DNA from: Tetraselmis striata
Taxonomy: Eukaryota > Chlorophyta > Chlorodendrophyceae > Chlorodendrales > Chlorodendraceae
Length of the DNA stretch: 64,000 bases
Assembly (NCBI GenBank): GCA_006384855.1
Contig: VCJN01001651.1
Location: 59,574 to 123,573 of the forward strand
Direction: 5' to 3'
Shown here in pieces: positions 223-46,610 of the stretch (its first letter is position 1; each line of letters begins with the position of its first letter). The position numbers and the translations under genes were made by a program. The notes below the pieces were generated by a model that had not been told where the DNA came from, ran no database searches, and saw only the letters and a program-made list of their open reading frames with translations.

Positions 223-3200
223 TTAGGGCTGCGGATTGTTGCTACGCATGATAATGTGCATCCTAGCTAGGGTATGATCCAGGGCTAAAAGGACCGGGTA
301 GGGCCGCCGCACCCCCTGCTCCGTGACGCGGATGAGCCGGCCAAGGCGCAGCTCCTGCAGCTGGCGCAGCCCGGCGATGTCGGCCATCGCGCGGTCAGTG
401 AGGAGCGAGCAGCGGTTGAGGCGCAGGCGGCGCAGGCCGGGCATGGCGGCCACCAGGGCGCTGGCGGCGGCGTCCGTGATCTGAAGAGTGGGGGGAGAGG
501 GGGCAGCACGCTCAGGCGACTGGACAAAGCCCTAAATAAAACCTGATTCTGCTGACCTTGTCCGTTTCGTGCAACTCCATAATCCTATTCTGAAATCCTC
601 AAAAACAATCTCAAACCCTTACTACGCACATCATTTAGACCCAAATCGAAACATGTCAATTAAACCCCTACTAAAACCCCAAAGTTTAACCCTTTGGTTT
701 AATCATTCATTTCACCCAACTAAGTGAGGCTCCCAGTAACGCTACACTGTTATTGACAGTGCTGCTCGCAGTGAGCGTGGCATTGGGCCCAAATAGCTCC
801 AACCTCCAACCAATATAGAAGGGACTGTGTGGTGGTTTTCGTGGGCTCCGTCTATGATGCCACCGAAATGGGGATTCAGCATCACCGTTATAGACTTTCT
901 AGCGACTTTATTGGGCCAGTGTACATTCCGCAGTGTATAACTCATCATACATACATGAATATAATAAATAAATACATGAACCATGAACGCATATATCTAT
1001 GACACATTACATATATATCTAGATTATATGCACATATGTATATATATGTATATCAAAATCAATAAGCTACATCAATATACAAATCCATGAAATACATTAA
1101 TACGCATAATACGTGCGGACATCAGTATTGCATGGAATCCTTATTCGTGAGCTCCTGTTTCAGATAAAACCGGATTCCCGAGCAGGAGTATGCGCCAACT
1201 CCTTGGGGTCAGGATTCCGTGTGGGGCAGGAGGAGGCGGGGGCTGCGCTGTCACCTGGAAGCCCCAGCAGAGGTCGAGCACCTGCATGCCGTGGAGGGCG
1301 GTGAGGTGGAGCACCCCCGCGTCCGTGAGGGGCTCGCACTCGCTGATGTTGAGGTGCTGCATGCGGGGCAGCCGCGCCAGGAAGGGCATCACCTCGTCCT
1401 GCACCTGCGCCCAGGCGAGGGGGGTTGTGTTGTTAGGGTTTGAAAGCGCGCGGCAGGAGGGGCGCGTGACAGGAGGGGGGCGGTACAGCGAGGGGCGGTA
1501 TGGAGGCCGCGGGGGGGGGGGGGGGGGGCGGGGGGCGACCATGTAGCAGCCGCGGAGGTTCAGCTGGGTGAGCGCCTGCAGCGCCGTCAGGTGCACCATG
1601 CCCTGCGGCAACAGTCAGCAGCGAGGTCAGGGCGCGGTGAACGGGAGGGGCTTGCAAGGGAATGAGGGTCGCGGGGCTCTCTGGCGGGAAGCCACATGGT
1701 ACGTGCCAAGTGGGTTGGGGGGGGGGGGGGGGGGGGTGCTGAGTGTACCTGGGGTGACACTTCCCAGCAGGCGTAGCTGAGGTCGAGGTGGCGCAGGTTG
1801 CGCAGCTTTGCTAGTGCGCGGAGGCCCTCGTCACACACGCGCTCGCAGCCCTGCCAGGAGCGCCAACATCGAAGGTGCTTCAGCGCAGTATTCAAGAAAG
1901 CCTTTATTGGGGGGGGGGGGGGGGGGGGGGGGCGAGGGCGCAAACCTCTGCCAGGGACAGCTCCGTAAGGCCAGAGAGCTGCGCCACGGACTCCAGCCCT
2001 GCGTTGGTGATCTTGTAGCAGGACTGCGGCGTCGGGGCACACGGCGGCGCAGCGCTCAGAGCTCAGACTCCCATCCCATCCCATCCCACCTCAACCCCAA
2101 TCCCATCCCACCTCAACCCAATCCATCCCAAGCCCAATCCCAAGCCCAAGCCCAATCTCAATCCCAATCCCAAGCCCATCCCCACCCCACCCCCATCACC
2201 ATCCCCACCAAATCCCATCCGATGTATGCTCAACAGTCCCACAGGGAGGAGCCCCGTCCTCTCCCGCCCCCCCATGGTTGCATGTGGAGCATGGCGCATC
2301 ATGGCGGTGGGCCGCGCACGCTGAGGTCGAGCGCGCGCAGGTTGGCGAGCCGGGTGAGCGCCTGCAGCGCGCTGTCATCCAGCTGCTCCAGGCCCGCCAG
2401 GCGCAGGCGGGTGAGGGAGCTCAGCTGCGCGAGGGCCTGCACACCCGCCAGGCCGATCAGCGGGCAGAAGGAGAGGTCCAGCTCCACCAGGGCGACGCAG
2501 GCGGTGAGCCACGCGGCGTCGCAGTTGCTGACCTGCCCGGGGAGGCCGGGGAGGGGGGGGGAGAGGCTCATGTCCCGCCGGCCCATCCACAGGGAGCGGC
2601 AGCAAGGCAGGCATTGGTGGCGGAAAGCAGAGAGTAATACGGGGTACGGGATATGGAAATCCTCGTCAGGAGGCCCAAACCCCAGGCCTCAACAACAACC
2701 TCCCTTGGCTTATTGCGGGGGCTACCTGAGTTCAGCCCAGCCCGAAATCGTCCTGCAATTGGCCTACATCCAACGCATGCGGAACCCCTTAAAGTGCACT
2801 TCATACCGCACCATAACGTGTGTGGGATCGCCTTATTGCGCGTCGCGCAAACTGCCCCGTATCGTCGACTCCATAGATTGCTTTGCGGTGTTGTTGCCCT
2901 TTGCCCTGTTGAATTTCGACTATTCGGTGGGTTGTCTGCGCCTGCAGCCCGGGTCCCAGTTCTGCCCGTGGTTGACGCCCCTCAGCTACCCCTGATGAGA
3001 CCTTTCTCAGGGCCGGGAGTGTTGGCCCCTCTTTGCAGGAGAGGGGGGCGGCGCACTGGGTGGGGGGGGGGGGGGGGGGGTTAACACAGGGCGCCACTCA
3101 TGTGCCGACCGAAAGAGTGCTCACAGCACTTCAGGTCTCCTGAACCATCAGCTAGCGCTCACCCTAACGTGTGGAACTCGGTGACTTATGATTCCGCCTC

Positions 3201-5379
3201 CATCCAGAAACCCAACGAGCTCACAACTCACAGCGGGGTCATGTCCAGCCTGCCATGTCTCGGCCCAAATTAGAGCGCCGAACTGCGCACTCGTATGCGC
3301 CAGCCTGTCCAACAGTATAGCACTTTGGCGCCACCATGCCCCCCGCCCCCTTCCCCTCCTCGTCACACTGCCCGTCCGCCCTGGGAGCTGGAGCGGGTTG
3401 CGCCGGTGCTGCTGTGCGTGGGAGGGGGGAGGAAGGGGGGGAGGAGGGTCACCCACCCATCGGCACTGCCTCAGCGTGAGCGACTGCAGCCGGGGGCACG
3501 CCCGCAACGCCAGCAGGCCCTGCCCCGTGACGCGGTTGCAGCGCGTGAGGTCCAGCGCCTGCAGGCCGCAGAACCCCGGAAGCCGCGCCATCCCAGCGGC
3601 TGGGCGACAGTGACACAACAAGCGCAGCGGCACAGCAAGCAGCGCCGCCGCTCAGCCAGCCGCCCAGTGAGAAGAAGGACAAGGGAGTATGGGGCAGGCA
3701 AGGCAGGCGGTCCGATGCTGCCGCCGTGGCGGATGTTGAACAGCAATGGTTCCGCCGCTCAGAGTTGAGGCTGGCGATGCCTCTGGGTTGCCAGCCTGCG
3801 TCAGTTCATTGTGCTCGAAGGTTGCAATACACTGTGGATGAATTGCAATGAACCACCGCGGCGGAGATCCCATCCCAGATTCGTGGTGCGTTCTCCAGAT
3901 GAATGCGTTTTTTTTTCCGAGGGGGTCCAAAACAATAATGTATAGCGGCAATGTAAGGCGTGCTTACGGCATGGCGATAGGAGCACCGGGAGTGCTGAGT
4001 GGTTGTGGTAGTGGGGGGGAGGGGGGTGGTGCGCAGCCTCACCCGAGACGCCGCTCCCCGCGAGATTGAGCTCCCGCAGGCTGGCGCGCAGGCCGGCCGA
4101 CGCCCACCAGCCCAGCCAGGAGGCCGTCCACGTCCGGGTGCCGACAGCGCGCAAGGCTCACCGAGCGCAGGCTGGGCATTTGGGCGGCCAGGCTCGCCAG
4201 GGCCTCCCTCCGTCCTGGGGGGCGGGAAGCCGGGCAGCCGGGCAGCCGACCACCGCAGCGCGTCGGCGGTACGTAAGCGGAGGGTTGGGAAAAGGGAAGG
4301 CGGGCGGGGCCGGGGGGGGGGGGGGGAGTGCTTGCGCTTCCCCATGCTGACATGGCTGCTGCCAGGGGGGTGGGGGGCTGCCTGTTGCAGTACTTACTAC
4401 ATGCGGTGCTGTGAGGAGCAAGGAAAGCGCATCCGAGCCCCTGCCACACTGGCTGCACCTAGCATTCCGATGAGTGATAACAACAAGACTGAAAATGGTG
4501 TGATTGCTGCCATATCCAACCCCCTATCTCATAAAGTACCCTGGCCGAAATCATCATTGTAAATATATTCAATGCGGAAGAGGGCATAGATATCACTGGT
4601 ACAAACTGGGAAGCGGCAATGCCCTTACACCACCTGAAGCCCCAGGCACGATTTCTCTCTCCCACCAAAAGATGTATTGAATGCACGTGTACCCTCGCAC
4701 ACTCGTATTATTATTTATGTATGGCTGTTCAGTATCGCGATGATGTATAATCTGATATTAATGAAGCAGACGATGTTCATTATAATGTTTACTATCGCAG
4801 GGGGGGGCAAACAAATGCCGAGGCTGCGACCAACTGGGCAGACGGCGTATTGGAAGTGCGACGGCGGGGATAGTCGGGAGAGGTGGGGTGCGCGGAGGTG
4901 GGCGAATGGGAGGGGGGGGGGGGGGGGGAAGGGGGGGGGGCGTTACCGACAGCTGCCGGCGCGAGGGCGGTATGCGCCACCAGCGCGGCGTCGCGCCACT
5001 TTCGGCTGACAAGGTGGCACGTCGGCAGCGCGTCGTCGGAAAGCGCCTGCAGCGTGGCCACAAGCAGCTCCTGCGCGGTAGAGTGCCCCTCCCCCCTCAG
5101 TGCCAACCAAAGCGAGCCAGTGCGCACATGCAGCCTCTCGACCGTAGGTATGCTGACCAGGTAGGCTCGCACTGCTGCCCGCGGACGCGGCTGCGGAGCG
5201 CTGAGAACAATACTCGTACAGTAACCAATAATGCTTGATATATACAGACACATAGTACTGTGCATCCACAGATGTTGCTGCCAGATGAGCCGTGCGCGGA
5301 GAAGGGTGGCACTCGCCTCTGGCAAGTGTTCCACGCTATAGCGGCCCTCCATTGCAGCCGCCATGCTGTCGATGCTCAT
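223..5379 (-). CDS. F-box/leucine-rich-repeat protein, nine exons
   Basis: Probable substrate-recognition subunit of an SCF ubiquitin ligase. Exons, in transcript order on the minus strand: 5379-4947, 4214-4043, 3599-3457, 2532-2320, 2023-1946, 1850-1761, 1602-1540, 1404-1255, 480-223. All junctions are GT-AG and phases agree, giving about 532 residues. The first exon carries an F-box-like segment (LLVATLQALSDDALPTCHLV, then SRKWRDAAL). The rest is cysteine-type LRRs of the AMN1/FBXL kind, with repeats such as LQALDLTRCNRVTGQGLLAL and LRHLDLSYAC. Exon 2 needs one base removed near 4097-4098 to join LLAGLVG to LRASLRELNLAGSGVS, so it holds a +1 frameshift or an assembly error. The start at 5379 is the first ATG of the exon; residues about 30-80 look unlike the rest and could hide an unrecognised intron. 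Most introns begin with C-rich or poly-C sequence. The substrate cannot be inferred. Confidence 0.82.
481..1254. other. last intron of the F-box/LRR gene, AT-rich
   Basis: A 774-base intron. Its middle (about 940-1110) is TA-rich with short ATATAT/ACATAT runs. No gene seen inside. Confidence 0.5.
1909..1932 (-). repeat. poly-G run (poly-C on the sense strand) at an intron 5' end
   Basis: Twenty-four G in a row on the plus strand, 13 bases inside the donor site (exon end 1946) of the minus-strand F-box/LRR gene. A similar run at about 1511-1528 follows the next-but-one donor directly (ATG|GTCGCC then C-run), and another at about 1718-1735 lies roughly 25-40 bases inside the donor at 1760. Confidence 0.9.
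2066..2222. repeat. CCCAAN/CCCATN minisatellite in an intron
   Basis: Degenerate tandem hexamers and pentamers of the type CCCAAT, CCCAAG and CCCATC run for about 155 bases between exons 4 and 5 of the F-box/LRR gene. It creates spurious proline/glutamine- and glycine-rich frames on both strands. Confidence 0.85.
2533..3456. other. intron 3 of the F-box/LRR gene
   Basis: A 924-base intron. It starts C-rich on the sense strand and has a G run (C on sense) at about 3062-3080. The middle part (2600-3000) has ordinary composition and encodes nothing I recognise. Confidence 0.45.
4215..4946. other. intron 1 of the F-box/LRR gene
   Basis: A 732-base intron. Sense poly-C starts 6 bases inside the donor (plus-strand G runs 4912-4928 and 4931-4940). 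The distal part (4450-4800) is AT-rich. No gene seen. Confidence 0.5.
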
Positions 5380-5834: not shown

Positions 5835-5848
5835 GTGAATTCGGACTG

Positions 5849-6519: not shown

Positions 6520-6713
6520 TCTTATAGCCCTGGTGCAGGGCACGGGCGTGGGCCCCTGACGAGGGGCAGCCGAGTGGGAGGGGCAGGAGGATGCGGTGAG
6601 GTTAAAGGAAGTGTGTGGCGTCCGCAGTGCCCGCGCCGCCATGTAGCGGCGCGCGCACCTGGCGGGCGCCCAGGATACTGCTGTCGTTGCGCTAGTACTA
6701 ATTTACTATAACA
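6520..6713 (-). repeat. 3' LTR of the nested mini-element
   Basis: Left member of the 194-bp direct-repeat pair. It has ACTATAA at its right edge and TTATAG at its left, preceded by the duplicated CTTTG. Confidence 0.85.
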
Positions 6714-6924
6714 GCCCCTCTCAAGCATAGGCCGGTCATACAGTTGACTAGTGCCCATGCTTGTCTAAGCAACAGGGTGTGAGTAGGTTCTGGCAGGGCT
6801 TTGATGAGCCCATCCAATGGCGGCACCATTGAGCATGCTGATAGCACCGGACTGAGAGCGCCAGTTGCTGTGTCAGTTGCTCAGTCGGAGTCTGAGTAGA
6901 CTACGAGGCGAGCGCCCCCCCGGT

Positions 6925-7674: not shown

Positions 7675-7798
7675 ACAAACGCTCACGGAAAAACCGGGCG
7701 ACATGGCCAGGAGGGCGCGCCGTGCAGGCGGGCGCGGCGCATCGAGACGGAGCACACAGCGGGAAGCGACGCTGTGAGGCTAGGAGGGCCTCATAACC

Positions 7799-7992: not shown

Positions 7993-7997
7993 CTTTG

Positions 7998-9789: not shown

Positions 9790-11998
9790 GTGAATTACAA
9801 AAAGGGCAGTTCCCCAGAATTAGAAAATCAACACAGCAAGCCGCCTAAAAGCGGCCCGCATCCCGCATAAGGCGGGATGGATGAGTGATGCGCACACGGT
9901 TCAGAGTCCGGGCCACGCGAGCACGTGTGTGTGTGGGTGATCCTCGGACGTGCTGTGCAGCTTCAGCAACGGGATGGCAGACGAATCTGCGCCGGCTGAT
10001 GAGGCAGCGAGCGCGCTCTCGAGCGGCCACCAAGCTCAGGACCCCGAGGAAATCTCTTGCGAGCAAGGCCTCCTGGTGAGCCCGGGTGATGCACCGAGTG
10101 CCCCGCGATGAGAGGGCACCCCGATCCGCAGCCAAGCATGCGATACCACGCACTGTGCGGTGCACCCCCTTGCTCACCTCACCCACTGTGCCGAAGACCA
10201 TGCCCGTGTACTCCGACATAGCCAAGATGTCTCGAAGAGGATCCTTCTGTCCGGGCTCTGTGTTGTGCCACGCCGCATCCCGCGCAGCCAACCCCCGTTG
10301 TATGTCGCCCAACAGGGAGCGCTCAAACCGATCCACAGCCGTGGCCCGGGGCACTGAAGTGTACTTGACCCCGTACCGCATAGTCTTGAACTCCAGCAGC
10401 GTGGACTTCAAGCTCCGGGTATCATAGCTCCCGGTCACGACGTTGAACGCCGGAAGGGAGAGCTCTGCGTCCGGCACTAGGTCCTTGAGTTCATCCTTTG
10501 GTACGGTGTTGCTGAGAGGCACTGCCTGCTGAAACAAGTCATCCACATCCCGCCGTACCGCGATACCTAGGTCGTGAACACAGTGATCGCGGAAGGCATC
10601 TACGATAGCGTCGTGCTGTACACGCCAGTGAGCGTCTCCAGGCGCCGGGAGGTTCATGAGCGCGTCGCCGTATAGATCAACAATGACGGGGTTGTGCTCC
10701 GTCGAGGGCAGAATGATCTGGCACCCAACCACCGGGGCTAAGCACGGGCTAGGCAGAAAGAAGTACCCGGCAGCGACCTCCCGCAGCTCATGCGGAGCCA
10801 TGGCTGTCCGCGCGGTGGGGATGGCCACTGTCCACATGCCTGACGCCGCGTCGAGCTGGTTGAACAAGATCCGTTCCCTACATGTGGCAGGGAAAGCGCA
10901 CACCTCATTTCGAAGCCGAGAGTTGTTGGCCTGGTCTAGAAATGCCGTCAGCTCCTTTTGCGAGCCCGACGCAGCCTCCACATCCCGCTCCATCTGGCGT
11001 GCGTCTGCGTCGCCGAGATGGCCAGCAGTAGCCGCTTGGAGGCGGCCCCACGCCTCGCGCATCTCCGCGGCGTAGCTGTCCGACCCATGAGCATCGTTGA
11101 GGAAGTGGTCATACTCGCGGGCGGAAGAATTTGCGTTGAAGCTGCCTCGGCCAAGTACTGACCCGAGCTGTGGGTCAAAGAAACCAGGGGTGGGGGTGTT
11201 GGTGCCGGAGTTCCTAGTCAGGAACCTTGGGAGGATGGCATTCATGCAGCCGATGAAGGCGGCATCACGAACGGTAGCCATGCGGCGGATGCCAGCTCCC
11301 TTCAATCGAGTGGGGAGGTGAAGCCTACTGCGCGCCCTGGCCACTGCATCCTCGCTCAAGGTAGCCTCCTCCGCTGCCATGGGGTCGGGGTCGTGCAAAA
11401 GCTCCGCCAAGAAATCGGTGACCACCGGATTGGTGTCGGTGCCGTACGTGGAGGGATCAAAAGAGACCCCTAGCACCCGTTCGACCGCCGCGAGGATGGT
11501 GGCATCCACCGCCTCCGCAAAGGCCTCCACCTCGGACGGAAGACAATTGCGGAGCCAATACCCCGCCTTGTGTTGTATGCAATGCTTGAGCAGGGCCCAT
11601 GCGTGGTGATGCAAGGCGTGGGTGTACCGACGGCTGGGCTTGGCAGACAGAAGCTTGCTCAGGCTAGCGTCCACCTCCTCTCGTAGCTCCTCCGCCTTGC
11701 CGCGCATGTACGCCTGCACATACTCTGGCGATCCAAGCGGCACGTTCAAGACCGCGATGCCGTGATGGCCATCTAGCTCGGGCCACTCGATGTCGGCCGG
11801 AGCCTCACGCCGCGCGGCCTCCATGTCAGCGCTGTACGCCTGCATCTTGTCGAAGCGCACCTCAAGCCCCACGGACGCCTTGATGGACGTGCGGAAGGCG
11901 TGAAGAGCCGGCCAAACGTGCTCCGGAAGGCCCACCAAAAATCCATCGTCGGCGTTGAAGCGCGCCGCCCCGTCATGACGAGTGGTACAGTGGCGCAT
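9790..11998 (-). pseudogene. non-LTR retroelement RT-endonuclease, 5'-truncated copy 1
   Basis: A single open frame of about 717 codons on the minus strand, but it lacks the N-terminal half of the polymerase. It opens close to the catalytic box, seen here as NADDGFLVG where the first residue is normally tyrosine; an upstream in-frame TAA lies in unrelated AT-rich DNA. Then come the usual RT thumb block (LHLPTRLKGAGIRRM, about residue 230) and, near residues 500-540, VPDAELSLP followed by LLEFK. This fits a PD-(D/E)XK endonuclease and differs from the nuclease of the 14.6-16.7 kb element, so two families are present. A long clean frame with a truncated 5' end is typical of a recent dead-on-arrival insertion. 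Confidence 0.7.
9840..9879 (-). other. 3' stem-loops of the retroelement
   Basis: Two hairpins near the 3' end of copy 1: GCCGC/GCGGC around CTAAAA (9840-9855), and an 8-bp stem CATCCCGC/GCGGGATG (9859-9866 with 9872-9879). The first is conserved in copy 2 at 13589-13604. Such 3' hairpins serve as RT recognition sites in some LINEs; that role is inferred here. Confidence 0.55.
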
Positions 11999-11999
11999 T

Positions 12000-17302: not shown

Positions 17303-17569
17303 ATGGCCGCCGAGGAGGGCGAGGCCCCCGCGATCGCGGCGCCGAAGCTGCAGCTGGACGACAAAAACTCCGCCGGCTTCGTCAACTGGTTCCGCAGCCT
17401 GCCCCAGGTGCGCGCTGCTCCCCCCCCCCCCCCCCCCCCCCCCCGCTCCCCCGCCCCCCGGCTTCCAACCCGTGCCGACTCCCGCCACCTCGTCATCTCC
17501 CACTTCGGAAGCGCTGAACAATTGGTTGTCACGCCATAGGCGACGGTAGATACTCAGTCACAGCTGACG

Positions 17570-17606
<37 letters not shown>

Positions 17607-21731: not shown

Positions 21732-21762
<31 letters not shown>

Positions 21763-27081: not shown

Positions 27082-28279
27082 TGAGGAGGAACCCCCTGGT
27101 GAAGGCAGGGCGCCCTCGTACAGCAGCCGGCCGTACGTCGGATGTCACCGGCAGGGGCGCTGGCGGGCTCCAGCCTGGCTCAGGCGTTGCCCAGTCACGA
27201 GCCATGCCGCCACGCAAAGGATGCGCTCGACAGCAGGCAGTGCCCTGATGGGTGCCCCTTTTAGGTACGACGGACTGGGCATGGGGGCCGGTGCCTGTCA
27301 TTGTGGGGCGGCGAGCCTCGGGCAGAGCAGTGGGCAACAATTGTAAGTATACTTTTAGAATCACGTGACCGGGCTCGCACATTGGCCGTAGAGGCTGGTA
27401 GCTATGTTGGTCACATCTTAGAGTTGAGCTATAGATTCCTGAACAATGGCGGAGATCACGTCATTACACATAAAACTAGTTGTCCATGGCACCTCGGTAC
27501 CCGGACAGAGTAACGTCATCATCCTAGAGTAATGCCGATGGCACTCACCCCCGGGCTATCATAAGTTGCACGCAGCCTGGGGATGTCAAGGGCGCAGATA
27601 CACCAAATCCTGGACCAGTAACATGAGCCTGCAGTGATGTGCCGACGCGGTAGTAAGGGCACTGCGAATGAGAAACCGCCCTGCCTGCCAGGGGTCAAAT
27701 GTGGACGAAAACATAGCGGAGGTGTACAGTGGATGTTCTTATAGGCTGATAGCAACTCCAATCCGAGGCTTTTACTAAAAGTTGTTATAGGAGATTGACA
27801 ATATATAACAACATTAGCTGCAATGCAGCTATACCTTTGTCTGTATTGCAATTACTGCCACCAGTGGGCTTAGCTTACAGCACATGCGCACACTTGCTCA
27901 TAAAAGCCCTGCGGGTGTCAAGCTTGCTAGGGGTTGTAGGAGCCAATGGGGCGGCAGAGGTAGAACCAGTTCCCGCCGGCGTTCCAGTCGCGCACGCAGG
28001 CGGTCGTCTCAGAGCAGCAGCCGACAAACGCGCCGGATGACCAGGGATTACTATCCTCAGGGGTGCAGGGGCTGGTGGGAGCTGGCGTCAGTGCTGGTGT
28101 TCGGGGATGCACCCGGAACTAGCTTCCCGGCGGCGATCACGCCGCTGATGACGCTGCGGATTAAGCAACTGTGTATACGTCGGCGTACACTTCACTGATC
28201 CAGCGGGTGTTAAAACGAGCGGTGTTACCTGCGGCGTAACCTAAAGTTTGTTAGTGGAGTCTGTTGGGAGTCAGGTTTA
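27082..28279. other. intergenic, no gene recognised
   Basis: Mixed sequence after MSH2. The part near 27665-27725 is shared with MSH2 intron 14. Short open frames (for example 27884-28198 plus) have no family resemblance that I can see. Confidence 0.4.
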
Positions 28280-29860: not shown

Positions 29861-30068
29861 ACTTGTACTACGTGCCCGCACGCGCCCGAGCGGCGACGAC
29901 CCCGGCGGCCCAAGCGGCAGCAAGGGCAGCTTTTCTTGGGCGAGAGTGATCTGGCGGTTCAGCAGCAGGGTCAGGCCACACCAGCGGCACCGCGCGCCGA
30001 CAAAAGATGCCGCGAACGCGCCAGAGAGGCGGCGCAAGGAAGTGCACTCGCTCCCACCGCCGCTCACA

Positions 30069-33000: not shown

Positions 33001-34837
33001 CCCTCAAGCAGTCGTGATGTAAAAGACGAATGCAGCCACTCCGCGGTCGTTCCAACAGTGAGGAACGTCGTTTGCTCTTGGCGGTTTTAAGACACGATGT
33101 CTTACCGAGCCGCTGCTGGGCTGTCCTGGATCATGGAATCGAATGCGGGAGCAATGACGTCCTTGGTTCCTGGCCTTACTAAGCCGCCCGATGTGTGCGC
33201 GTGTGGGGGTGGGGGTGGGGGGAGGGGGGGGAGGGAGGGGGATCCGGAGGGGAGGTGGGTGGTTGGGGGCCAGGAGGGGGTTGCCTTCGTGTGACAGGGT
33301 AAGAACCCTGCATTTGTTGGCTTTGACCGTCTAGGTAGGTTAGGACCGCCAACCAGAACTACAGGCATACTCTAAAGCCCGCCATAACCCATGTTTTCCT
33401 TGTCGCACCACCTCGTAGCTGTTCAATTTGCCCTGTGTGTGTGGAATTTTGCTGTACTGTGCATATATCGCTGTATTTCTCTACTGGCAGCGCCATCACG
33501 CGCCGCGTTGTATTCATCACCGCGCGATGTCATTTGTGGAATGTTGTACTTGTACCTGTACTTATACTTGTACTTGTACTAGCTTTCATCGCTGCCACTC
33601 GCATCGCTGCCGCCGCGCCCAGCTTTATGTATCGTTTTTACCGTGCAGCGATAGCTTTTTAAGTGTTATATCGGCAGCGCTGCGTCTGCACCGCTATGGA
33701 TAACATTGTTTCATTTGGAATGTTGTATCAATCGCAGCGCCTCGGACGCCACCGCCGCCGCGGACGCCCTTACCAAATTCGTTTTCATCGTCATGTTATC
33801 GTGCTTGTGGAATATTGCTGTGCTGGACGCGCCATCACACATACTCATCACCGCGCGATGTCATTTGTGGAATGTTGTACTCCCATCGCTGCCGCGCCCA
33901 CTTCAATATATTGTTCTTACCGTGCAGCGATAGCTTTCGGAGTGGTGTATCGGCAGCGCCGCGCCTGCGCTGCTGTGTATACATGTTTTATTGTATTTTA
34001 AGCTATTATTACACCTGTTTATCACCGCGCACATTGTTGCATTTGGAATGTTGTATCAATCGCAGCGCCTCGGACGCCACCGCCGCCGCGCCCTGACCAT
34101 ATTTATCTTCATCGTCATATTATAATTCCATCATCACGTTGGCGTGCGGTGAAATATTCTGATTGGAATGCTGAACTCGCGCAGCTCCGCCGGCGCCGGC
34201 TTGCGGCCTTACTATTAATCCTTACCACCTACGAACTTATTTCATTTCATCGCTTATTTATAGTCAGCTAGTATTTTTGGGTATTGTTCATTATCCCCGC
34301 GCGCGCATCAGTACGCATCAGTAGTGCCATAAATACATGTACTATTAGACCTATGCAACGGTAAGGACTATTATCCCCAATTTCTTCCATACTCGCAGCT
34401 GCTTTGCAGAATGGTGTATACGGGTGTTATTATCGCGGCATTGCGCTCAATATAAATATGTTTTGGAATGCCTTTTGCACAGCCGCCCGTCGCGCCGCCG
34501 CGTTGTCATGGCACTGAATCCCCCACACCTGCGCCCGGCAGCTGTTGCGCCAGTCATCCAAGCCATTAATGCCGCATGCGACTGGCCAACCGAATCAACA
34601 AGCTGAGACGCGCGTTGGATTGTCCCCATAGGTTGCCAAGCACATCCTGCGGGAGTCCCTCCCAGACGGCGGGGACGCCCTCAGCGACAGCGACAGCGAT
34701 GCCGACAGCGACGGCAGCGGCGGGTCCGCCGGGAGCGGCGAGGGCTTCTGGAGGAGGCCGGCGCGCGGGGGGTGGCCGACTGCACGGCGCGCATGGGCGC
34801 GCTCAGCACCTCGGACATCCAGCTCTCGCTACAGTGA
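30069..34837 (+). CDS. F-box protein, at least eight exons
   Basis: Likely SCF ubiquitin-ligase adaptor. Supported exon blocks: about 30069-30269 (LYAEETVRSAGYAVAGIG...ERDAVYAVSVCDG), 30793 to about 30873 (VQHLCRTVAHHFP), 31028 to about 31110 (LQLEKAQKQMFVALQRQE), 31276-31390, 31587-31741, 32484-32564, 32678-32772, and 34632 to about 34833. The F-box is split between the two blocks from 31276 and 31587: GEVPPEVLGQILGYLPARDA, AVCVNRAWHGVLSTDDKVW. Phases from 31276 onward agree. After it comes a basic stretch (RWKHNRLLVRRKRLEW) and an acidic serine/aspartate run (ALSDSDSDADSDGSGGS). The true start, the junctions at 30873-31276 and the C-terminus are uncertain: a one-base shift in the G run near 34768 would extend the frame to a stop at 34837. 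The largest intron, 32773-34631, is repeat-rich. Confidence 0.68.
31829..32434. repeat. direct repeats flanking a foreign exon-like segment in an F-box intron
   Basis: GGCTGTTAAGACTTACTGTT followed by a GGGAGA-type purine run and GTAGTGGGACGC occurs at about 31829-31895 and again at 32366-32434. Between them, on the minus strand, lies a reading frame (see next entry). The arrangement suggests a segment inserted or duplicated as a unit. Confidence 0.6.
31896..32042 (-). CDS. exon-like membrane-helix segment on the minus strand
   Basis: After an AG acceptor at 32043-32044 (minus) it reads LLTRENHRLGDSQGVERGAAA and then a hydrophobic stretch, ALFGCVAVTLAALAGALSGV, a plausible transmembrane helix followed by ITK. 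Codon use is like that of the real exons here. It may be a captured exon or a fragment of an antisense gene. No neighbouring exon was found, so it is unlikely to be functional alone. Confidence 0.3.
33395..34110. repeat. diverged tandem duplication in an F-box intron
   Basis: Pieces recur about 280-330 bases apart: CGCGCGATGTCATTTGTGGA (33523 and 33854), ACCGTGCAGCGATAGCTTT (about 33640 and 33920), and CATTTGGAATGTTGTATCAA (about 33710 and 34040) followed by GCCTCGGACGCCACCG. A (GTACTT)n-like run sits at 33545-33580. Confidence 0.75.
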
Positions 34838-35709: not shown

Positions 35710-38700
35710 TCATGGCTCGGGGGTGGGGGGCGCGGGAGCGCCGGGCATCAGGTTGGCACAGCGGCCGTGCAGCGACACAAAGCTGATGTCCAGGTTGGGG
35801 TGCTCGTGGTTGTCCTGCCACTCGCTGCGCAGGTCCTCGTGGCTGATCAGCTTCACGAGGGCGAGGTTGCCGCTGTGCCTGCGTGACAGGGGGATCTGCA
35901 GGGACATAAATGGGGGGGGGGGGGGGGGGGGGGAGGTGGCGTAAGCTGTGACTGGGGGGAGGGTACGCTGGGGTCAGAAGGTTGGCACACGCTTGGCGAA
36001 AAGCTGGGAGCGGAAGGGGCGCGCCCCGACGTGGTCCGCAGCCCGTGCTGCAGTGCGAATCGTAATGCAGAAATAAGTATAACTTTAGGGCTTTAAAACC
36101 CTAAAACCCGAGCTGTGTACTTTAAAAGGCGGGAGTGTCTCGCTCTCACACAGGAGACTTTGCCATACGTAACGCCGTTCGCCATTTTCAAGATTCCTTG
36201 ATTTGCAGTACTGGTAAGTATCTTTGGGGGGAAACAATTTTGGCAAACCCAGGAAATAGGCATGAATGGAAATAGACAGGCACTTTCTTGGAAACAGAAA
36301 ATGTGTGGAAATAAAACGGGTGCTATCCTGGAAATAAAAGTAGGTGGGAAATAAAATGTGACGATACTGGAGTTAATATCCCGTTCCCGAAATGTGTATC
36401 AAAAAGGTTACATTCCTGGAGTCATCCGTACCTATCTCCAGGATAACAACTTTTTGGTTCCCGTAAAGTTGATACGGTATCTGTCTGGGAAATAAGTACG
36501 GGTACTTGTAGTCACGGTACTACCGCGGATACGGTACTCTGAATATATGCCGTGTCGCGTAGACTAGTAATCGCTATAATATAATATATATATATAACTA
36601 CGGTACCCTACCAGTCAGCACGCATGTAGTCACTCACTGCAGATACTCGTACTCCTAGTACTTGTCAGGCATCCATATGACAGGGGCGAGGCAGAGAGGG
36701 GAGGAAGGAGGGAGCGGGAGCACTGGCGGCTCGGCGGCGCATGGCACCGGGTACGGGACATCGCGAGTGTGCTGCCAGGGGCTCAACATCCAATGGGCAG
36801 GGCAATGCGCCACCCGGGGATCATTGCTGGAATCAGACCCGGGTGCTCGGCCTGCTACTGTGCTCTCTCCTTTGGCCCGTTAGAGGGCGACAGGCACAAA
36901 AAGGGCACCTGGCGAGGTACCATGATAAACCAGGGCTGCCCTCATCATGGTCCCCGTAGCGACCACTGCACCCTCCCCAGAAGGCAGCACCCTCGCTGGA
37001 CCCTGCCACCCATGAGGCCAGAGGAGAGGGGCAGGGAGGACCTGCAGCTCCTTGTGTACATTTGACGACTCGGGCGCGGCCTCGGGGGCCGGTGCCTCCG
37101 CCGCCGCTGCCGCCGCCGCCGCCTCGTTGTCCGCCCCCCCCCCCTCCCCCTCCTCGTCCGAGTCCGAGTCGGGGTGGTTGTCCATGAGGTACGCCAGCGC
37201 GCCGCCGGGCGGGATCTGGAACGCCGGCTGCGCGTCCAGCAGGCCCGGCTGCAGCGGCGGCGGCGCGGCCCCGCTGCTGGGCGCCGCCGGGATGTCCGAC
37301 GCCAGGCGCTGCTTCACCTCCGCCTGCGTGTAAAAGTGGAACCACAGCACCGGGTGCAGCATGGCCTCCCTCCCCGGCGGCGTCCAGTCCGGGTCGAACT
37401 CCACCCACCTGGACGCAGCGGCAGGCCGGCCAGCACGCCAAACGCAGCGGTCAGCGCCCGAAAGCAAGGGCATCCGAACTGGGCGGGGGAGGTCGGACGC
37501 AGGCGCTCACTCTCCGCCCGCAAAGCGGCCGCTGGCCACGATCGGCGGCAGCTGGCCCTGCGCCACAGCCAGCTCCACGTCGTCCCGCTGCGTGGCGTCG
37601 TCCAGGGCGGAACACGACGACTCCGCCGCCGCGGCCTGCGGGCCCACAGGCAGGCGCGGCACAGCGGTCAGGCTACACAGACACAGACAGGAACCAAACC
37701 CGCCGCCTCCACACGCGTAATAGTGCATCACAGGCAAACGGCGCCCGCTTCCTCGGCATGCACCGCTGCCAATCGATCCCAAGGCAGCGGAGGATTGTCC
37801 ACACGACTTGGGAGGCGGTAAGCTCATTGTCAGCAATGCACGCTAGGCAGGCGCCCCCGTGAACTCTGCGTACGGGCACAGCCTGCCGCAATTTGTTTGT
37901 ACTGGAGTGTGTGCGGTACCTCGGTCTGCCCCAGTATAGGCTGCACGAGTACCGAAACAAATACACACTGTTACAGATGTAATTACACTGTTCTGAAAAG
38001 ACACCGCCAGACATCTGCGCAACTAATAATCCACTAACAATCGCAGTGATGGCTTTGGCGGGCCCGGCGTCGCTGCACTTTTCAAATGTAGATGACTTAA
38101 AAGCCCGGGAACAGAGGTGCATATACAAGTGAGGCTTCATCTTGTTTACCACTTGTTTACCACCAGCTGTCATTAAGAGCTAAGTGGCCTGTTTGAAATG
38201 AAACAATCTTGGTTTTTTTAATGTCGGTTTGAACGTTTAAAACCCCTTTGTTTTCATTATCACTTTATTTCTTCCTAGCAGCGTAACGGCCCCCCTCCCT
38301 CGCAGGGACGGGAAGATCTGTACTTGCCTGTACTCATACTACAAGAATGCACCACAAAATATGCACCGCACGGATCCTCACTGACCTCGATGGCGCAAAA
38401 AGACATGTTTCCGCGACCGACAAACCGAATTGAACGGTACGGCGCGCGCCTCGGAGTATCATTTGAAGCGACGCGCGGGCGGCCGTGCGGACCCCGGGGC
38501 GCGCGGCGCGCATCGATACATGCTCGGCGCGGGCAGAGTATTCGTACTGTACTGTATTCGAATCGCGAAATGTCCTACGAGGTTACCGCTGGAGGTGAGG
38601 TGCACCCCAGATGTTCCACCCCATCAAGTTTATAATTATTTTTACCATCATTGTTAAGGCAGGTCCGATTTAATGTTATGTTTTAGTACTCTACTTTCCG

Positions 38701-41700
38701 GAGAAACAGAGGGGGGGGGGGGGGGGGGGGGGGTTCACTTTGTAAGTGGCCTCAACTTTAAATGTTCACGTACTTCAGCAGTACTTGGCGGCTGGGAGCG
38801 GTGCATGAGCGGCTGTGCTCAGCCCCGCACCGCCGCCGTGAACATACTGTGTTAATTACGTGGATAGCGTCTAGAGAACGCACGGAAAGTCTTTAATATC
38901 CAGGCCAGGCATACAGCAGCTTAGCAGCATCGTAGCACTGCATGGAGGGGTGGATAGACCACCGTATGGTAGGTCTGTCATGACGCTGACTGTAACATGG
39001 TGATGGTTCCAAAAAGTACCCTTCTCCATTTTATGTTTGCATATGGCACGGAACACCCGTATGCACACAGCCATGCATTGAAACCATAAAAAAAAAGTCA
39101 TGCCAGTGGTAGTTATTATGCAACTTTGGGCATGTTCTACTAAGTACTGTGCGATCAACATAATAAAGTAGAGGGGGCGGGGGGGGGGGGGGCGGGGGGG
39201 GGGGAGGATATTTCTAAAACATAAAATTAAATCGGACCTGCCTGAATTGGATGTTATTGTTAAATTGGATGTTGAAGTGTTATTTTCGTTTAATGTTAAA
39301 TAGGATGGGGGACAAAGCGGGGCACGGCTGTCGGTGGGTCGGCCCTGTCTTATCGCGAACCATTTTTTCCTGTGGGGATGGGGTCTGATAGTATATGCCC
39401 GGGGTCCGCCCTGCCTTAACCCGTAGCATACCCTCCCTATATGGAGTTGTTATAACGGCAAGCAGCTGCCTCGCAATTCCGGTGGCTTGTAGTCTTAGGA
39501 ATCAGTTGCAAGGCAGCCCTACCCGGGCGGGGGGAGCCGGCGAGGGCGCACCTGGATGCGGGTGCGCAGCGCGGGGGCGCCGCCGGGGATGCGGCGCTGC
39601 CGTGCGTCTGCCAGGAAGACGGCCCCACAGGCGACGGGGCAGGAGAAGTGGCCCAGCCGGCTGATGTGGCACGCGTCCACGCTCGCCACCCAGTTGCCGG
39701 CCTCCGGCCGAGCCCACAGCTCGCCCAGCGCCGTGTCAAACAGGCGGAGGTGCGAGGAGGGCGCCTTGGTGCGGGTGAGGAATGCCGGCCGCGCCTGGGC
39801 ACTACTGGACGCCCCTGCTGCTGGGAAGAAGGGGGGAAAGGGGGGTCATACGATGGGGCATGCGGGCAAGCCGGCAGCAGTGCAGTTCACAGGAATCGGC
39901 GATGGAACTGGCGGTCATGGAGCTGGCGATGCGGTGTCCAGAGGTGACTGCCATTACGGGCGCCGACGCGGCGTCGACAATACACTGATTTCATGTGAAA
40001 ACACGCCAAACTCTAATGCCGGCAAAACCACCACGGGGAACATAAATATAGATGGAACGGTCACGGATACGGCACGCAGGTTCTGCCTCAGTGCCGGCAC
40101 ACCGAATCTGGGGCACAAACAGCTGTTCGTTCCCAACGTCGCGCCGGGCACATGTAGAAGCAGTGACATGCCCCCGCCGAGCCTGCCCAGCTGCAGCTTG
40201 CCCCGCCGGGTTCGCTGAATGAAACAATGCAGCTATCATGGTGTCCTTGCGACATCCTTTGGCTCTGTGCGAGGTCCCTCTGTCTCCAGGTACGGCATGG
40301 TGTCTTCCCAGCGCGCGGGACCCGAGAGGCCACAGGAAACGAAAGCGGTTGAGAAGTGGGCCAGGGGGTCCCCACCGCGGGGGTGGGCGTCCTCGCAGAC
40401 CATGGTGTCGCAGGTCTGCAGGCGGCCGTTGATCCAGTCCATGGTTCGGCGCATGCGCGACGCCTCCTCATGCCGCTTGTCGTGCGCCACGCCATGCAGA
40501 ATGAGCATGCCGATGAGGGAGCCTGGGACCCCGCGGCGGTGGGGAAGGGGGGGGGGGGGGGGGGGGAGAAGGGAGTGAGTGATCGGGCCCCGGCATCAGT
40601 TGCCAGCCTTTCCACGAGAGCGCGTCCTGAGTCACGTGCCCAGTGCTGGGTGCTCTGCACCTATGGGGAGAAGGTGGGGGGGGGGGGAGGCTCACGCTGG
40701 CGGAACTCGTTGTACAGTTCAAGGAAAAAGTGGTCCAGCTCCGATGTTGTCCATGTCTCGAGGCGCCTGCCGCATCACCACGCCTGCCCCTCAGCCGCTA
40801 GCCAGCGCAGGGCGGGCGAGGTGGTTTTGGTGGTGGGGGTGGGGGTGGGGGTGGGGTGGGGGTGGGGGGGAGATGCACCAGGGCGGCTGGAGGGGGCGTA
40901 CACAGGGTCCATGAAGAGCTCTTCTGCAGCCCTCCGGCACCGCTCGATGAGGTACTCCCGATGAGCCTGCGCTTGCTGGTCCCCCTCGTGGCCCGCTCCC
41001 TGCAGAGGCCCAAGGTGCAGGCCGTCAGGAGGGCAGCCCCCCCCCCTCCCCCCCCCCCCCCCCTGGCCCACTGACGGCACATGCTAGCAGGCAACGGCTG
41101 GGGCCATTGCTGCGTGGCACCGCAGATCATCTGGGGCAGCCTGCCACAGCGACCCCCCCCCCCCCCAACACACAACCCACTACCACCAACGGTATTCCTT
41201 TGCATGGGGGGGGGAGGGGGGGGGGGAGGGGGGGGGGGGGGGGGGGGCGGGGGGGGGGGCGCGAGGCACTCACCAGCAGCAGCCCAGCGCAGTGCACATT
41301 GCTGCCGGCCTCACTGCAGTACGAGTCCCAATGGTTCTCTTGGAACATGTTGTCAACCTGGCCAACGGGTCACAGCCCAGCAGCCGGTCAGCCCGGGAAC
41401 CTGGGTCGGACGCCTGAGAGCCTGCCTGCCGTCTCGTAAGGGTACCGTACCTGTGCAAAGTAGATAAAGCGACAAATGGCGCTGCGGTGGGCGGGTGGAA
41501 GTGCGGAATAGGGGGGGGGGGGGGGGGGGGGGCGCACCCAGTAGCGACGCGCGCTGGCGTCGCAGCCGCCGTCCGTGTAGCAGCCTTGAAAGCGCACCCG
41601 GCCGGAGCGCTGCCTGTGAAACTCAATGTAAAGCGCCTTGGGCGGCTTCACGCCGCTGCCGGCCGGCGGCAGTCGCAGCCCGAAGTCGGCCTCCACGCGC

Positions 41701-41870
41701 GCGCGCCACAGCCAGTCGCGGTCGCAGTCGCGCAGCGCTCGGCAGACCTGCCCCAGGGACAGCATGTCCGCCAGGCTGCCCACCAGCGTCCCCACGCGGG
41801 TCAGGCATTCGGGAGGCAGGTCCAGCATGCCGCGCCCCGTCGGCGCGTCGTCCATGGGACCCTCGTTCAT
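35710..41870 (-). CDS. F-box protein, nine exons
   Basis: Exons in transcript order: 41870-41538, 41357-41274, 40999-40904, 40756-40696, 40522-40254, 39794-39552, 37635-37511, 37408-37042, 35895-35710. All phases agree, giving about 587 residues with no frameshift. The N-terminal F-box is MLDLPPECLTRVGTLVGSL, then LSLGQVCRALRDCDRDWLWR. The middle region includes NMFQENHWDSYCSEAGSN and MRRTMDWINGRLQTCDTMVC. The region encoded at 37.0-37.6 kb has WVEFDPDWTPPGREAMLHPV and an acidic/alanine-rich linker. The C-terminal exon reads IPLSRRHSGNLALVKLISHE, which resembles the tail of some plant F-box proteins, though I cannot name the family. Junctions at exon 3/4 and the exon 5 donor are the least secure. 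Intron 6 (1.9 kb) contains a MITE. The role as SCF adaptor is inferred from the F-box. Confidence 0.78.
35896..37041. other. last intron of the minus-strand F-box gene
   Basis: 1146 bases. A poly-G run (C on sense) lies at about 35912-35932 just before the last exon. The stretch 36060-36660 is AT-rich with several GGAAATAAAA-like motifs, possibly an old insertion. 36660-37030 has no recognised content. Confidence 0.45.
38657..39243. mobile_element. MITE with 18-bp perfect terminal inverted repeats, in an F-box intron
   Basis: 587 bp. AGGCAGGTCCGATTTAAT at the left is matched by ATTAAATCGGACCTGCCT at the right; with a few mismatches the repeat extends through TTATGTTTTAG. Just inside each end is a G run (about 38711-38733 and 39178-39204). 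There is no transposase ORF and no clear target duplication. Confidence 0.78.
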
Positions 41871-43080: not shown

Positions 43081-43492
43081 GAACCAATACAGATAATCCT
43101 TGCCGGTGGCGCTACTGCTGCTCGAATCGGTTCGCTCTGGCTGATTTGCTGGCTTGCTGCTGTTGTTTTGAAGCATTATCCACATACACTGCAAACGCTA
43201 CCATTGCTGCTACTCCTGCTGCAGCCGCCAGCCCCTGGGACACGTTCAAGTTGGCACTACCCCTTGATGGCCTCCATGCCTTAATACAATAGACAGGCAA
43301 CATGCAATCGACGCCATCACGGAGCTCTTGTCCCTCAACAAAAAAAGCACGATAAGGTGGCAAACAGTTTGCTGTAGTTTCATGCTAACAAAGTCCGATA
43401 TCATGCAGCCATGTGTTTCCATCAGCATCAAGTGCGGAATCAAATGAGTTTCAAACTAGGAAATGGCATGACAAAGATTGATGGAACTCCAA

Positions 43493-43523
<31 letters not shown>

Positions 43524-43713
43524 TATTTGGAAGCAATATCCGCTCACTATACATATTAATACCTGGTGTGGCATCTTGTGATTTATGCCAATGGCTGCCT
43601 TTGCCCTCCATTAGCAGTGAAGCCGACTCGCAGGACAACTCTGCGCGCTTACCTGTTTTTTGTCAAATACAGAGTGAATCCTAGGTGTGGGTGGGTGGGG
43701 GGGGGGCTCATCA
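43081..43713. other. spacer, no gene recognised
   Basis: Contains a long G run at about 43493-43519. No coding feature recognised. It probably includes the 3' UTR of the gene that ends at 43714. Confidence 0.4.
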
Positions 43714-46610
43714 TCATCGAGGTTCTTGATGCGCATATCCATGGGCAGTCCTGGGTTTCCACGCTCGGGAGATCCAATAGCACGGCTGGAACACGCAGCT
43801 CAGGGCGCCGTGCATGAGCTGCCCGCCCACCCCCTCCGCGTGGGTCGCTAGCAGGGCACCCCCTTCCGATGTGGCCAGGTACGCGCGCAACCGCAGCAGC
43901 TGGCCGCCAAGCTTGTATGCCATGAGCTTGGAGGCCGCCGCCAGGCTTCCTGGCGGCGGGTCCGACCCGAACAGCATGGCGGATGCGCCAGGGTACTTGT
44001 CCCCAGCAATGAAGTCATTGTGCACCTCAAGTGTGTGCCGCGTGTATTTGACCAGGCTCACATGCGCATCATAGCCCTACATCCAACAGGGGTATGGCTC
44101 AGGCTGGGTGACAGCGATAGGAAAAGGGTGGTGGCAAGGAAAGCAGCTGCCAGCAGGACGTTGTTCCTCTACTACCATAGAATTAAATACGGTCTGCGAG
44201 GCGAAAAAATATTGAATTGTTTTTCCCTCTTTGCGTCGGAATATTCGTTGTGTATTCGTGCTAAATTGTGACTTATTTCTCCGTTACAATAGTTTTTTCC
44301 TCTCTGGGGGGGGGGGGGGGGGGGGGAGGGGGGTTCGAAAACAATTTATATATCCGCAGACTGTTTGTGTTTGCACAATACATGCGGAAAGTGGGAGAGA
44401 CAGAGGGGGGGGGGGGGGGGGGGCACCTGCTGCTTGATCAGCCAAATCTCCCAGAAATTCGGAATCGTCTGGTCATCAGGAGTTTTTGCCTATGCAACCA
44501 AGCGGCCGGGAACAACATGTCAGACATGCCCTTAGACAGCGGCGCGGACCTCCAATCCCTCAGGGACCTCAAACACATGTTCAATGGAACTCTGATGCGC
44601 AACATGGGCAATGGATGTAGTGTGGCAATGGAACTTTCAGGGAGGACAAGGGGGGGGGGGGGGGGGGGTGGGGGGGGGATACCCGCCAGAGGCACACTGC
44701 ATGCCGGCCGTCAGCGAGCTGGCTAGAGAACACCGTCAAGGGGAGCATCCCAGAGTTGAGGTCATTTCCTTTCGCACGCCAGGACTTGGAGTTGAAGTGG
44801 CCAGAATCAGCGGCATTGGCAGCTACCTGGCTTTTCCTGCAAGTAGAAGGGGAGGGTGAGCCGCATAGCTCCTCACCAGACAAACAAACGTGCCTAGGTA
44901 ATGGAGGGAGGCAGGGGTGGAGGAGGGGCTACCTTAACATGATGCGCATCTGCTGATCCATCTCAGACGCGATAGCAAAGGTCGCATCCTTGTGGACGAT
45001 CTCTTGGAGCTCGGGGGACGCGAGGGCGCGCCGGAGGGTGCCCGCCTGCACCGACCCCCGCATTCGTCAGCCGGTAAATGGAGAGGCACCTGGAGCTGCG
45101 CAGGCAGGGATGGGTGCATGTGATGGGGCAGGTGCGGATGGGGAGGACGACGGGCGGTGCGTACGTTGACACCAGGCAACACCGTTTCCGCCTTGAAGGA
45201 CGGCACGTGATTGTGATGCACTGCGGAGCTCAGGCTGACGCCATAGCTCCCGTCACCGCCATCAAACGAGCAAGGCTTCCAACCTTCCCAGTCCACGCCG
45301 GCAGCTTGCAGTTGAACCCTGACATGATGGCAGCAGCAGGCGGATGGCCTCAGGGCGAGGAGGGGGGGGTGGAGGTCTTGCAGGCTTGCCAGAGTTGAGG
45401 ATGCGGGCAGGGTTGGGGGGGGGGGGGGGGGGGGGGGCAGAAAGGCTTGATAGGACTGGCACAGGGGATCTACCACCCAGCAGCACCTGTGGCACGCAGT
45501 GGCGTCTTTGCCCCTCGTAGCAGTCTCCAGGCCGGCGGGATAGTATGGAGAGTAGATGGGCGCGCTCGCTGTCCAGCTCCGCAAAAGGGGCTCCACTTCG
45601 GGCCGCATCATTCTGGCGCAGAGCTCGGCCACCAGGAAAACGTTGCACTGATTGGCGGTGCGCAGCTGCATGCCGCCCTTCTGGAGCATCTTGCCCACCC
45701 CCCAGCCCGTGTAGGAGTGGTAGGCCGCCACCGACACGTCCGCTTTCAGCCCCTGCTCCGTGATCCGTACCACCCGCACGTGCTTCGCCAGCGGGTCGGC
45801 GCGGGTCGATGGCACGCGAGTGGGTGACACTTGGTCGCAGCCAGGCATGTCCTCGTCCGCCTCCCACTCGGTCACCTATGTCGTCGCGGTCGACATTGTC
45901 ACTGTTATTTTGATTGTCGTCACAGTCCCTACGAGTATGCTATCAGAACCATCAGGAATGAAAGCCCTTCCCCACTCAACAACGCCCTCCGCGCAAGCAT
46001 TATGCACCCCCCCCCCCCCTCCTTGGGAGGTGCTCATCACCACGAAGTCGCCGGGCCCCAGCTGCTCCGTTACGCTGTACATGCAAAAGCGCATCGCCCC
46101 CGCCATCGGCACGTCGATTGTCTGCTGATAAAAGTACGTCCACTCATCCAGCCGCGACAGCAGCGCCTTTTCAATCCCGCCACCCGATGACCGCTTCAGC
46201 CGCGGTTGGTCGTTGGTCAGCGCCTTGACGAGTGCATAAGCCTGCGAGCGCGCATGCGATCACTCAAGGCCGACGCTACGTTACGGTGCGGGTTCACCTC
46301 ACGGAGTTGTTTTCTTATTGACCCGCTGCGCGTCACATGCCGCCATCAGTACGGGTTCCAGTGGGAGGCGGGATCGCACGCTGAGAAGCGGGAGCTGGAA
46401 GCCGAGCCGGACCATATCGGACGTCTCGCAGGGGCGGTCCCACATGGTGATCACCAGCCCCGACAGTGATAGCGGCGACTCCACCGTCCGGAAATGGCTG
46501 CGCCCCCAGCCTAGCTTCAGAAACTGGCGGCCCGCCCGCCGGTTAGCCGCCACGGTGTCGGGGTCGGTGCCCCGCCGCAGCTCCGGCTCACAGCTCTCGC
46601 CACGCCTCAT
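43714..46610 (-). CDS. uncharacterised protein, eight exons
   Basis: Exons in transcript order: 46610-46323, 46241-46008, 45875-45487, 45318-45165, 45045-44933, 44836-44683, 44489-44427, 44076-43714. All phases agree, giving about 585 residues with a clean stop. I do not recognise the family. Visible segments: FLKLGWGRSHFRTVESPLSL, VPMAGAMRFCMYSVTEQLGP, VAAYHSYTGWGVGKMLQKGG, AAGVDWEGWKPCSFDGGDGS, LPLTVFSSQLADGRHAVCLW, and NDFIAGDKYPGASAMLFGSD. There is no obvious signal peptide, membrane helix or low-complexity region, so it looks like a soluble globular protein. The ATG at 46610 is chosen because the exon stays open only a few codons further and no upstream exon was found; an earlier start is possible. 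The exon 2 donor lies after a G run and is the weakest junction. Introns 6 and 7 begin with sense poly-C. Confidence 0.66.

Follow-up and report, generated by a model that had tools for sequence, protein, structure and literature searches.

Why do so many introns in one part of the Tetraselmis striata nuclear genome begin with a run of C? The 64-kb stretch analysed here (the window; contig C1335:59574-123573 of a 224.1-Mb nuclear assembly of 2903 contigs) contains an MSH2 gene, and a first-pass annotation of it had proposed that poly-C runs mark the 5' ends of introns on the sense strand. The poly-C bias at 5' splice sites (donors) is real, directional and donor-specific. It is a strong bias and not an absolute rule, since sense G runs, on which that annotation is silent, lie near the donors of MSH2 introns 10 and 14 and of a predicted intron at 46040 (Table 1).

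Poly-C runs at the donors of MSH2 and its neighbours

The 20 MSH2 introns were defined by spliced alignment of P0001, a homologue with 76% identity, and all MSH2 counts use this alignment, never a gene finder. Protein P0006 from JGI (99% identical, 624 aa, uninterrupted) gives identical borders for all 11 introns that it covers. It presumably derives from spliced RNA, a point on which the source is silent. In 11 of the 20 introns (1, 3, 6, 11, 13, 15, 16, 17, 18, 19 and 20), exactly the MSH2 introns listed in the first-pass annotation, a sense C run of at least 8 nt (C8+) begins no more than 35 nt from the donor. Two introns (21082-21180 and 21959-22134) have GC-AG borders, and both carry donor C runs.

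Introns of all other genes were called with a simple hidden-Markov gene finder that learned first from MSH2 and afterwards from the genes it had called itself. All C and G runs of at least 6 nt were masked, making the gene finder blind to them. In the final round on MSH2, which is also its training data, its 24 intron calls recovered 15 of the 20 real introns exactly and 18 of the 20 donors. It calls GC donors too often, and a few of its tiny introns are spurious. Introns called outside MSH2 are predictions.

Runs of at least 8 nt in the window number 37 for C and 44 for G. The annotation had named 11 run-bearing donors outside MSH2, and the gene finder blindly placed seven of them, at 41537, 41273, 40695, 1945, 1539, 31742 and 32773. 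It called no donor at the remaining four (4946, 32565, 44426 and 44682), which are plausible by eye, 32565 and 44426 being the best. Two further run-bearing donors, at 1748 and 30963, come from the gene finder.

Position and strand of the runs across introns and genome

A held-out sample was formed from 17 stretches picked by contig number alone, some of them short, together with two 20-kb extensions and the Prp8 locus. Only called genes with at least 300 coding nt and at least 3 exons were kept, which gave a set of 186 introns including those of the window. This set was then reduced by dropping introns shorter than 45 nt, those of stretches C450 and C1950, and those with GC donors in genes other than MSH2. 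The resulting 131 introns comprise 20 from MSH2, 27 from other window genes and 84 from outside the window. Expected counts assume uniform placement of runs within introns, with 20,000 simulations for the 131-intron set.

Both position and strand are biased. The 131 introns contain 83 sense C8+ runs and 28 sense G8+ runs. Sense C runs start in the first 35 nt 35 times (14.5 expected) and sense G runs 6 times (5.6 expected); the two are unequal at donors, as the annotation implied. At +3 to +15 there are 26 C8+ starts against 5.7 expected, a number reached in 0 of 20,000 simulations, and a single sense G run against 2.2 expected. The larger set behaves similarly: its 186 introns hold 98 sense C8+ and 32 sense G8+ runs, of which 37 C (16.7 expected) and 7 G start no more than 35 nt into the intron. 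By origin, the C starts in this set number 11 against 3.9 expected in MSH2, 12 against 4.7 in other window genes and 14 against 8.1 outside the window (p = 0.018). The corresponding G counts are 2 against 1.2, 2 against 0.9 and 3 against 3.9.

The pattern is not a peculiarity of the window, because the C excess persists in the 84 introns outside it. At +3 to +15 these introns have 10 C starts against 2.55 expected (p = 5e-5) and 0 G starts against 1.49; over the first 35 nt the values are 12 against 6.5 for C (p = 0.015) and 3 against 3.8 for G. Donor C runs are present in 11/20 introns of MSH2, 10/27 of other window genes and 12/84 elsewhere, and in 9 of 13 locus-and-strand gene blocks. The window exceeds the average, yet the effect is not confined to it. 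The claim that poly-C marks intron 5' ends captures a real directional bias and is too strong as worded, as 33 of the 131 introns have C8+ in their first 35 nt.

No excess is found at the acceptor, where C8+ runs number 15 against 14.5 expected under uniform placement in the 131 introns. Acceptor-side C acting as a polypyrimidine tract was rejected on these counts. By density, C runs of 12 nt or more in the last 35 nt exceed those in mid-intron (2.34 vs 0.71 per kb). Sense C also outnumbers sense G beyond the donor zone (48 vs 22). Intron length is unrelated to the runs, with medians of 157 nt for run-bearing introns and 163.5 nt for the others (p = 0.57).

Genome-wide counts over 224 Mb were made without gene models, by searching for C12 or G12 after the donor-like pattern AGGTG, with the mirrored pattern as control. 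C12 is found 0-20 nt past AGGTG 5201 times (2605 + 2596 on the two strands), compared with 1274 mirrored occurrences (628 + 646). At 21-41 nt the numbers are 3029 (1581 + 1448) and 1957 (942 + 1015). For G12 at 0-20 nt they are 4518 (2366 + 2152) and 3911 (1934 + 1977). The comparison with the mirrored and G12 counts indicates an excess that is largely C-specific, directional and short-range. The enrichment that the annotation expected genome-wide is present, and both the donor position of the tract and its agreement with the direction of transcription hold for the window, the held-out stretches and the whole genome. AGGTG accounts for 51 of the 131 donors, and for 9 of the 26 with C12+ nearby. 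As a rough figure, the genome probably has several thousand C-run donors, in an assembly that seemingly includes both haplotypes.

Table 1. Gene calls, donor-side runs and counter-examples in the window. Run offsets are counted from the donor.
Feature	Position	Strand	Basis and remarks
Gene call (LRR gene)	313..5379	-	gene finder; LRR repeats by Pfam, F-box-like marginally below cut-off
Predicted intron from 1539: sense C18 at +12	1511..1528	-	blind gene finder
Predicted intron from 1748: sense C20 at +13	1717..1736	-	blind gene finder
Predicted intron from 1945: sense C24 at +14	1909..1932	-	blind gene finder
Sense C10 + C17 behind annotated donor 4946	4912..4940	-	by eye; gene-finder donor 4977
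Gene call	11328..11998	-	gene finder
Gene call (MSH2)	17303..27621	+	gene finder
MSH2 gene, 21 exons	17303..27080	+	protein alignment; frameshift once in exon 10, once in exon 14
MSH2 intron 1 (17408-17625): C25 at +13	17420..17444	+	alignment
MSH2 intron 3 (18058-18400): C13 at +5	18062..18074	+	alignment
MSH2 intron 6 (19479-19563): C10 at +7	19485..19494	+	alignment
MSH2 intron 10 (20758-20889): sense G8 at +25	20782..20789	+	alignment; counter-example
MSH2 intron 11 (21082-21180, GC donor): C12 at +20	21101..21112	+	interrupted in second haplotig
MSH2 intron 13 (21959-22134, GC donor): C23 at +4	21962..21984	+	second haplotig C33
MSH2 intron 14 (22238-23350): sense G15 at +5	22242..22256	+	counter-example; second haplotig G10
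MSH2 intron 15 (23453-23891): C18 at +21	23473..23490	+	second haplotig C24
MSH2 intron 16 (24021-24107): C19 at +4	24024..24042	+	second haplotig C16
MSH2 intron 17 (24450-25315): C27 at +6	24455..24481	+	second haplotig C15-T-C8
MSH2 intron 18 (25556-26041): C18 at +12, preceded by C7-T	25567..25584	+	alignment
MSH2 intron 19 (26108-26231): C18 at +21	26128..26145	+	alignment
MSH2 intron 20 (26499-27069): C23 at +10	26508..26530	+	alignment
Gene call (second F-box gene)	30007..34837	+	gene finder; F-box-associated ARM repeat by Pfam, F-box-like below cut-off
Predicted intron 30963-31034: C17 at +28	30990..31006	+	blind gene finder
Predicted intron 31742-31885: C17 at +10	31751..31767	+	blind gene finder
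C10 behind annotated donor 32565	32570..32579	+	by eye; gene finder placed no donor
Predicted intron from 32773: C8 at +14	32786..32793	+	blind gene finder
Gene call (F-box gene)	35713..41870	-	gene finder; F-box-like above cut-off by Pfam
Predicted intron from 40695: sense C12 at +9	40676..40687	-	blind gene finder
Predicted intron from 41273: sense C11, C20, C11, C9 from +15	41206..41259	-	blind gene finder
Predicted intron from 41537: sense C22 at +6	41511..41532	-	blind gene finder
Gene call	43213..46610	-	gene finder; no Pfam match in protein scan
Sense C19 behind annotated donor 44426	44405..44423	-	by eye; gene finder placed no donor
Sense C9 + C19 behind annotated donor 44682	44650..44678	-	gene-finder donor 44695
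Predicted intron from 46040: sense G13 at +22 (plus-strand C13)	46007..46019	-	blind gene finder; counter-example

A C-rich zone, length drift and the candidate splicing role

The long runs stand in a zone that is itself rich in C. With runs of at least 6 nt masked, the C fraction declines from 0.398 at +7 to +16 to 0.289 at +87 to +130, and G stays at 0.24-0.27 throughout. T is lower in the donor zone (0.19 vs 0.24); the zone is enriched for C rather than for pyrimidine, and it resets at donors. C tracts are denser in the first 35 nt than in mid-intron, by 1.8x for tracts of 3 nt, 2.2x for 4-5 nt, 5.6x for 6-7 nt and 7.8x for runs of 12 nt or more. G tracts of 3-11 nt have a flat density, and G12+ runs, at 0.95 vs 0.35 per kb, are few (5 and 14). 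The positional signal is already present in the short classes (3-7 nt), so expansion could pass it on to the long runs, provided that a seed must reach about 6 nt.

The length distribution of intronic C runs dips at 12-14 nt and climbs again beyond, with many runs at 17-27 nt and 37 of at least 20 nt. A8+ and T8+ runs number only 2 and 3 in 41,037 intron nt, so the expansion is specific to G:C. In stretches L003-L019 (136,650 nt sampled), mononucleotide runs of at least 10 nt are solely G:C (89 C/G, zero A/T).

MSH2 exon 17 (window 24108-24449) has a second, nearly identical copy at C1072:55385-55726. Over 5 kb the two contigs are 93.6% identical including gaps, with substitutions and numerous indels in the introns around the exon. 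Both haplotypes are seemingly present in the assembly. On the second haplotig the donor C runs of introns 13, 15, 16 and 17 are kept with changed lengths, and the intron 11 tract is broken. All six MSH2 donor tracts compared between the haplotigs (five C, one G) are changed in length or interrupted (Table 1). Position is mostly kept and length drifts, which is how slippage behaves. The frameshifts in exons 10 and 14 look like assembly errors, because the reading is intact for both in P0006, and for exon 14 in the other haplotig. Elsewhere, L004 carries a tandem duplicate of a helicase-like gene (1-1228 and 6293-8246), whose introns are recognisably paralogous and differ in C run length. Among its four duplicated intron pairs, one has C20 and C6-T-C6, another C10 and C17, and two are without a donor C run.

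On balance, we lean towards a C-rich donor-side zone that serves as a putative splicing enhancer, overlaid by G:C slippage to about 20 nt. The mechanism would begin with the observed zone, a sense-strand enrichment for C over the first ~35 nt of introns that consists of 3-7-nt tracts as well as long runs and resets at donors. This zone, probably a splicing enhancer, would supply C seeds for slippage. Tracts of C or G above ~6-8 nt would then expand to ~17-27 nt, and A/T runs would not, a step that the run lengths bear out in part. The expanded tracts would vary between haplotypes, and long donor poly-C would represent the expanded members of the seeded zone. A splicing signal bound by a poly-C-binding protein was one of the explanations offered by the first-pass annotation. 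We infer that a splicing-linked cause fits best, because the peak resets at every donor and an acceptor peak is absent (15 vs 14.5).

If the tract assists weak donors, a deficit of G at +5 is expected. G occupies +5 in 8 of 23 run-bearing donors (run from +7 or later), compared with 60 of 98 run-free donors (p = 0.034, uncorrected, in one of two such tests). The commonest donor bases spell GTGCG, with a C fraction of 0.54 at +4 (117 introns). Three KH matches lie close together in genes at C1064, C4 and C187, and these are candidate poly-C binders. U1 snRNA was located at two places in the genome. More tentatively, it is possible that sense poly-C at +3 to +35 constitutes a genome-wide part of the 5' splice site in this lineage. 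It would be read by KH proteins and compensate for weak U1 pairing with GTGCG, growing into hypervariable homopolymers of ~20 nt that could tune splicing between alleles.

Several observations weigh against the reading of an enhancer overlaid by slippage. Slippage acting on a donor-side C-rich zone of any origin accounts for the data without an enhancer role. A at +4 shows no link to the runs (5/23 vs 20/98, p = 1), and KH proteins are universal, hence KH genes are weak evidence. Only about a quarter of the introns carry a donor C run, and the excess over the whole 35-nt zone is modest outside the window. MSH2, at 11/20, is extreme compared with Prp8 (2/19) and a plus-strand gene in L005 (0/10 called introns). 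The number of 12+ C runs per 4-5-nt tract is higher in the donor zone (27/46) than in mid-intron (21/160). Because this ratio differs by zone, short tracts can account for the peak as seeds only on condition that a seed must reach ~6 nt. According to the available text of two papers, C-rich elements in vertebrates can also silence splicing (PMC8789036, PMC2481429).

A purely mutational origin, in which a neutral C-rich composition on the donor side combines with G:C slippage and the tracts have no role in splicing, we regard as rather unlikely. It agrees with the number of 12+ runs per 6-7-nt seed, which is similar at 27/20 in the donor zone and 21/17 in mid-intron (11/4 at the acceptor), and with the low number of donor tracts in Prp8. 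The differing haplotig lengths and the tract broken in one haplotig also fit. What it leaves unexplained is why C and not G is enriched just past the donor, and the +5G deficit at run-bearing donors speaks against it as well. Distinctly less probable is a purge of sense G, where runs arise on both strands and G-rich RNA or DNA structures disturb transcription or splicing, as suggested for Caenorhabditis. The excess of C over G outside the donor zone resembles the 84 vs 47 tracts of C. elegans, as given in the available part of PMC2211496. Such a purge explains the strand bias but leaves the donor peak, where C exceeds uniform placement, unaccounted for. Intronic sense G runs (32 in 51,418 nt) are also no rarer than the C and G runs counted jointly outside called genes (84 in 174,211 nt; composition unmatched).

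The annotation had also considered co-transcriptional R-loops, i-motifs and transcription-coupled repair. These share with the data that the tract follows the direction of transcription, and are very improbable, as the peak resets at each donor, including MSH2 introns 15-20 far from the gene start. From an R-loop or repair effect one would expect tracts distributed along the transcript or concentrated where it begins, rather than a peak at +3 to +15 as in MSH2 introns 16-18. An assembly or sequencing artefact, for example from poly-G read ends, can hardly be credited. Run lengths were read from the assembly, and the MSH2 exons are frameshifted twice in the window. Sequencing is blind to gene orientation, yet sense C and G differ, and two contigs carry runs at the same donors inside diverged introns.

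Two other candidates were rejected. Introner elements are intron-generating transposons, and the introns that they create share sequence beyond the splice sites. All-vs-all blastn of the 131 run-masked introns returned only the tandem-duplicate L004 pairs and one 22-nt match between MSH2 and L004. A hairpin between C and G runs would place both in one intron; a G run is present in 6/33 donor-C introns and 18/98 others (p = 1).

Related systems and wider context

The statement in the annotation that no rule of this kind is described was too strong, since C-rich enhancers near 5' splice sites are described in the available parts of PMC2481429 and PMC8789036. In SMN2 intron 7, poly-C enhances splicing when placed past position 10, and poly-C at position 15 suppressed splicing unless its flank was changed (PMC8789036, excerpt). 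Work cited in the accessible text of PMC2481429 reports that hnRNP K works through a C-rich motif close to a 5' splice site in chicken and that alphaCP2 inhibits a human globin intron. Of 749 exons enhanced by alphaCP, 353 have a C-rich motif on the 3' side; the alphaCP motifs are mostly upstream of the exon (644/686), as far as the available text of PMC4797308 goes. The alga resembles these hnRNP K/PCBP (alphaCP) enhancers in having an intronic C tract on the sense strand near a splice site. Unlike the short exon-flanking motifs of vertebrates, its tracts reach ~20 C at many donors, have no acceptor peak and are known here from sequence.

Long G/C tracts are also abundant in C. elegans. Many are intronic, G is preferentially on the non-coding strand (84 vs 47), the tracts are maintained by DOG-1, and their location within introns is unbiased, according to the excerpted text of PMC2211496. 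The alga shares such long homopolymers and their orientation, G lying more often on the non-coding strand (83 sense C vs 28 sense G runs of at least 8 nt in 131 introns). In contrast to Caenorhabditis, its tracts peak at the donor (26 vs 5.7 expected at +3 to +15). Tandem repeats of Chlamydomonas and Volvox concentrate toward both intron ends in a U-shaped distribution, with GT/AC as abundant motifs (PMC3887541, available part); the algal tracts described here differ in being C homopolymers on the donor side and sense strand. We found no report of donor-side poly-C in algae in the titles and abstract openings of the papers that our searches of open-licence literature listed.

If functional, the tracts would constitute a second-layer donor signal, visible by eye, in roughly thousands of introns and made of hypermutable homopolymer. 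Haplotype comparison would then give direct access to allele-specific splicing. Even if non-functional, they provide a clean system for why G:C and not A:T homopolymers expand and hold one orientation to transcription. For gene predictors they are a warning, as C runs adjoin donors.

The nearest match to MSH2 is an MMETSP protein (76% identical); among named species the closest are proteins of Trebouxia, Myrmecia, Coccomyxa and Elliptochloris, at 65-67%. In a Pfam scan of ten predicted proteins (four of window genes, six of other loci), nine match a family. A complete rbcL reading frame (475 aa) is located at C1177:10325-11251, and weaker RuBisCO-like matches are present in C890 and C2473.

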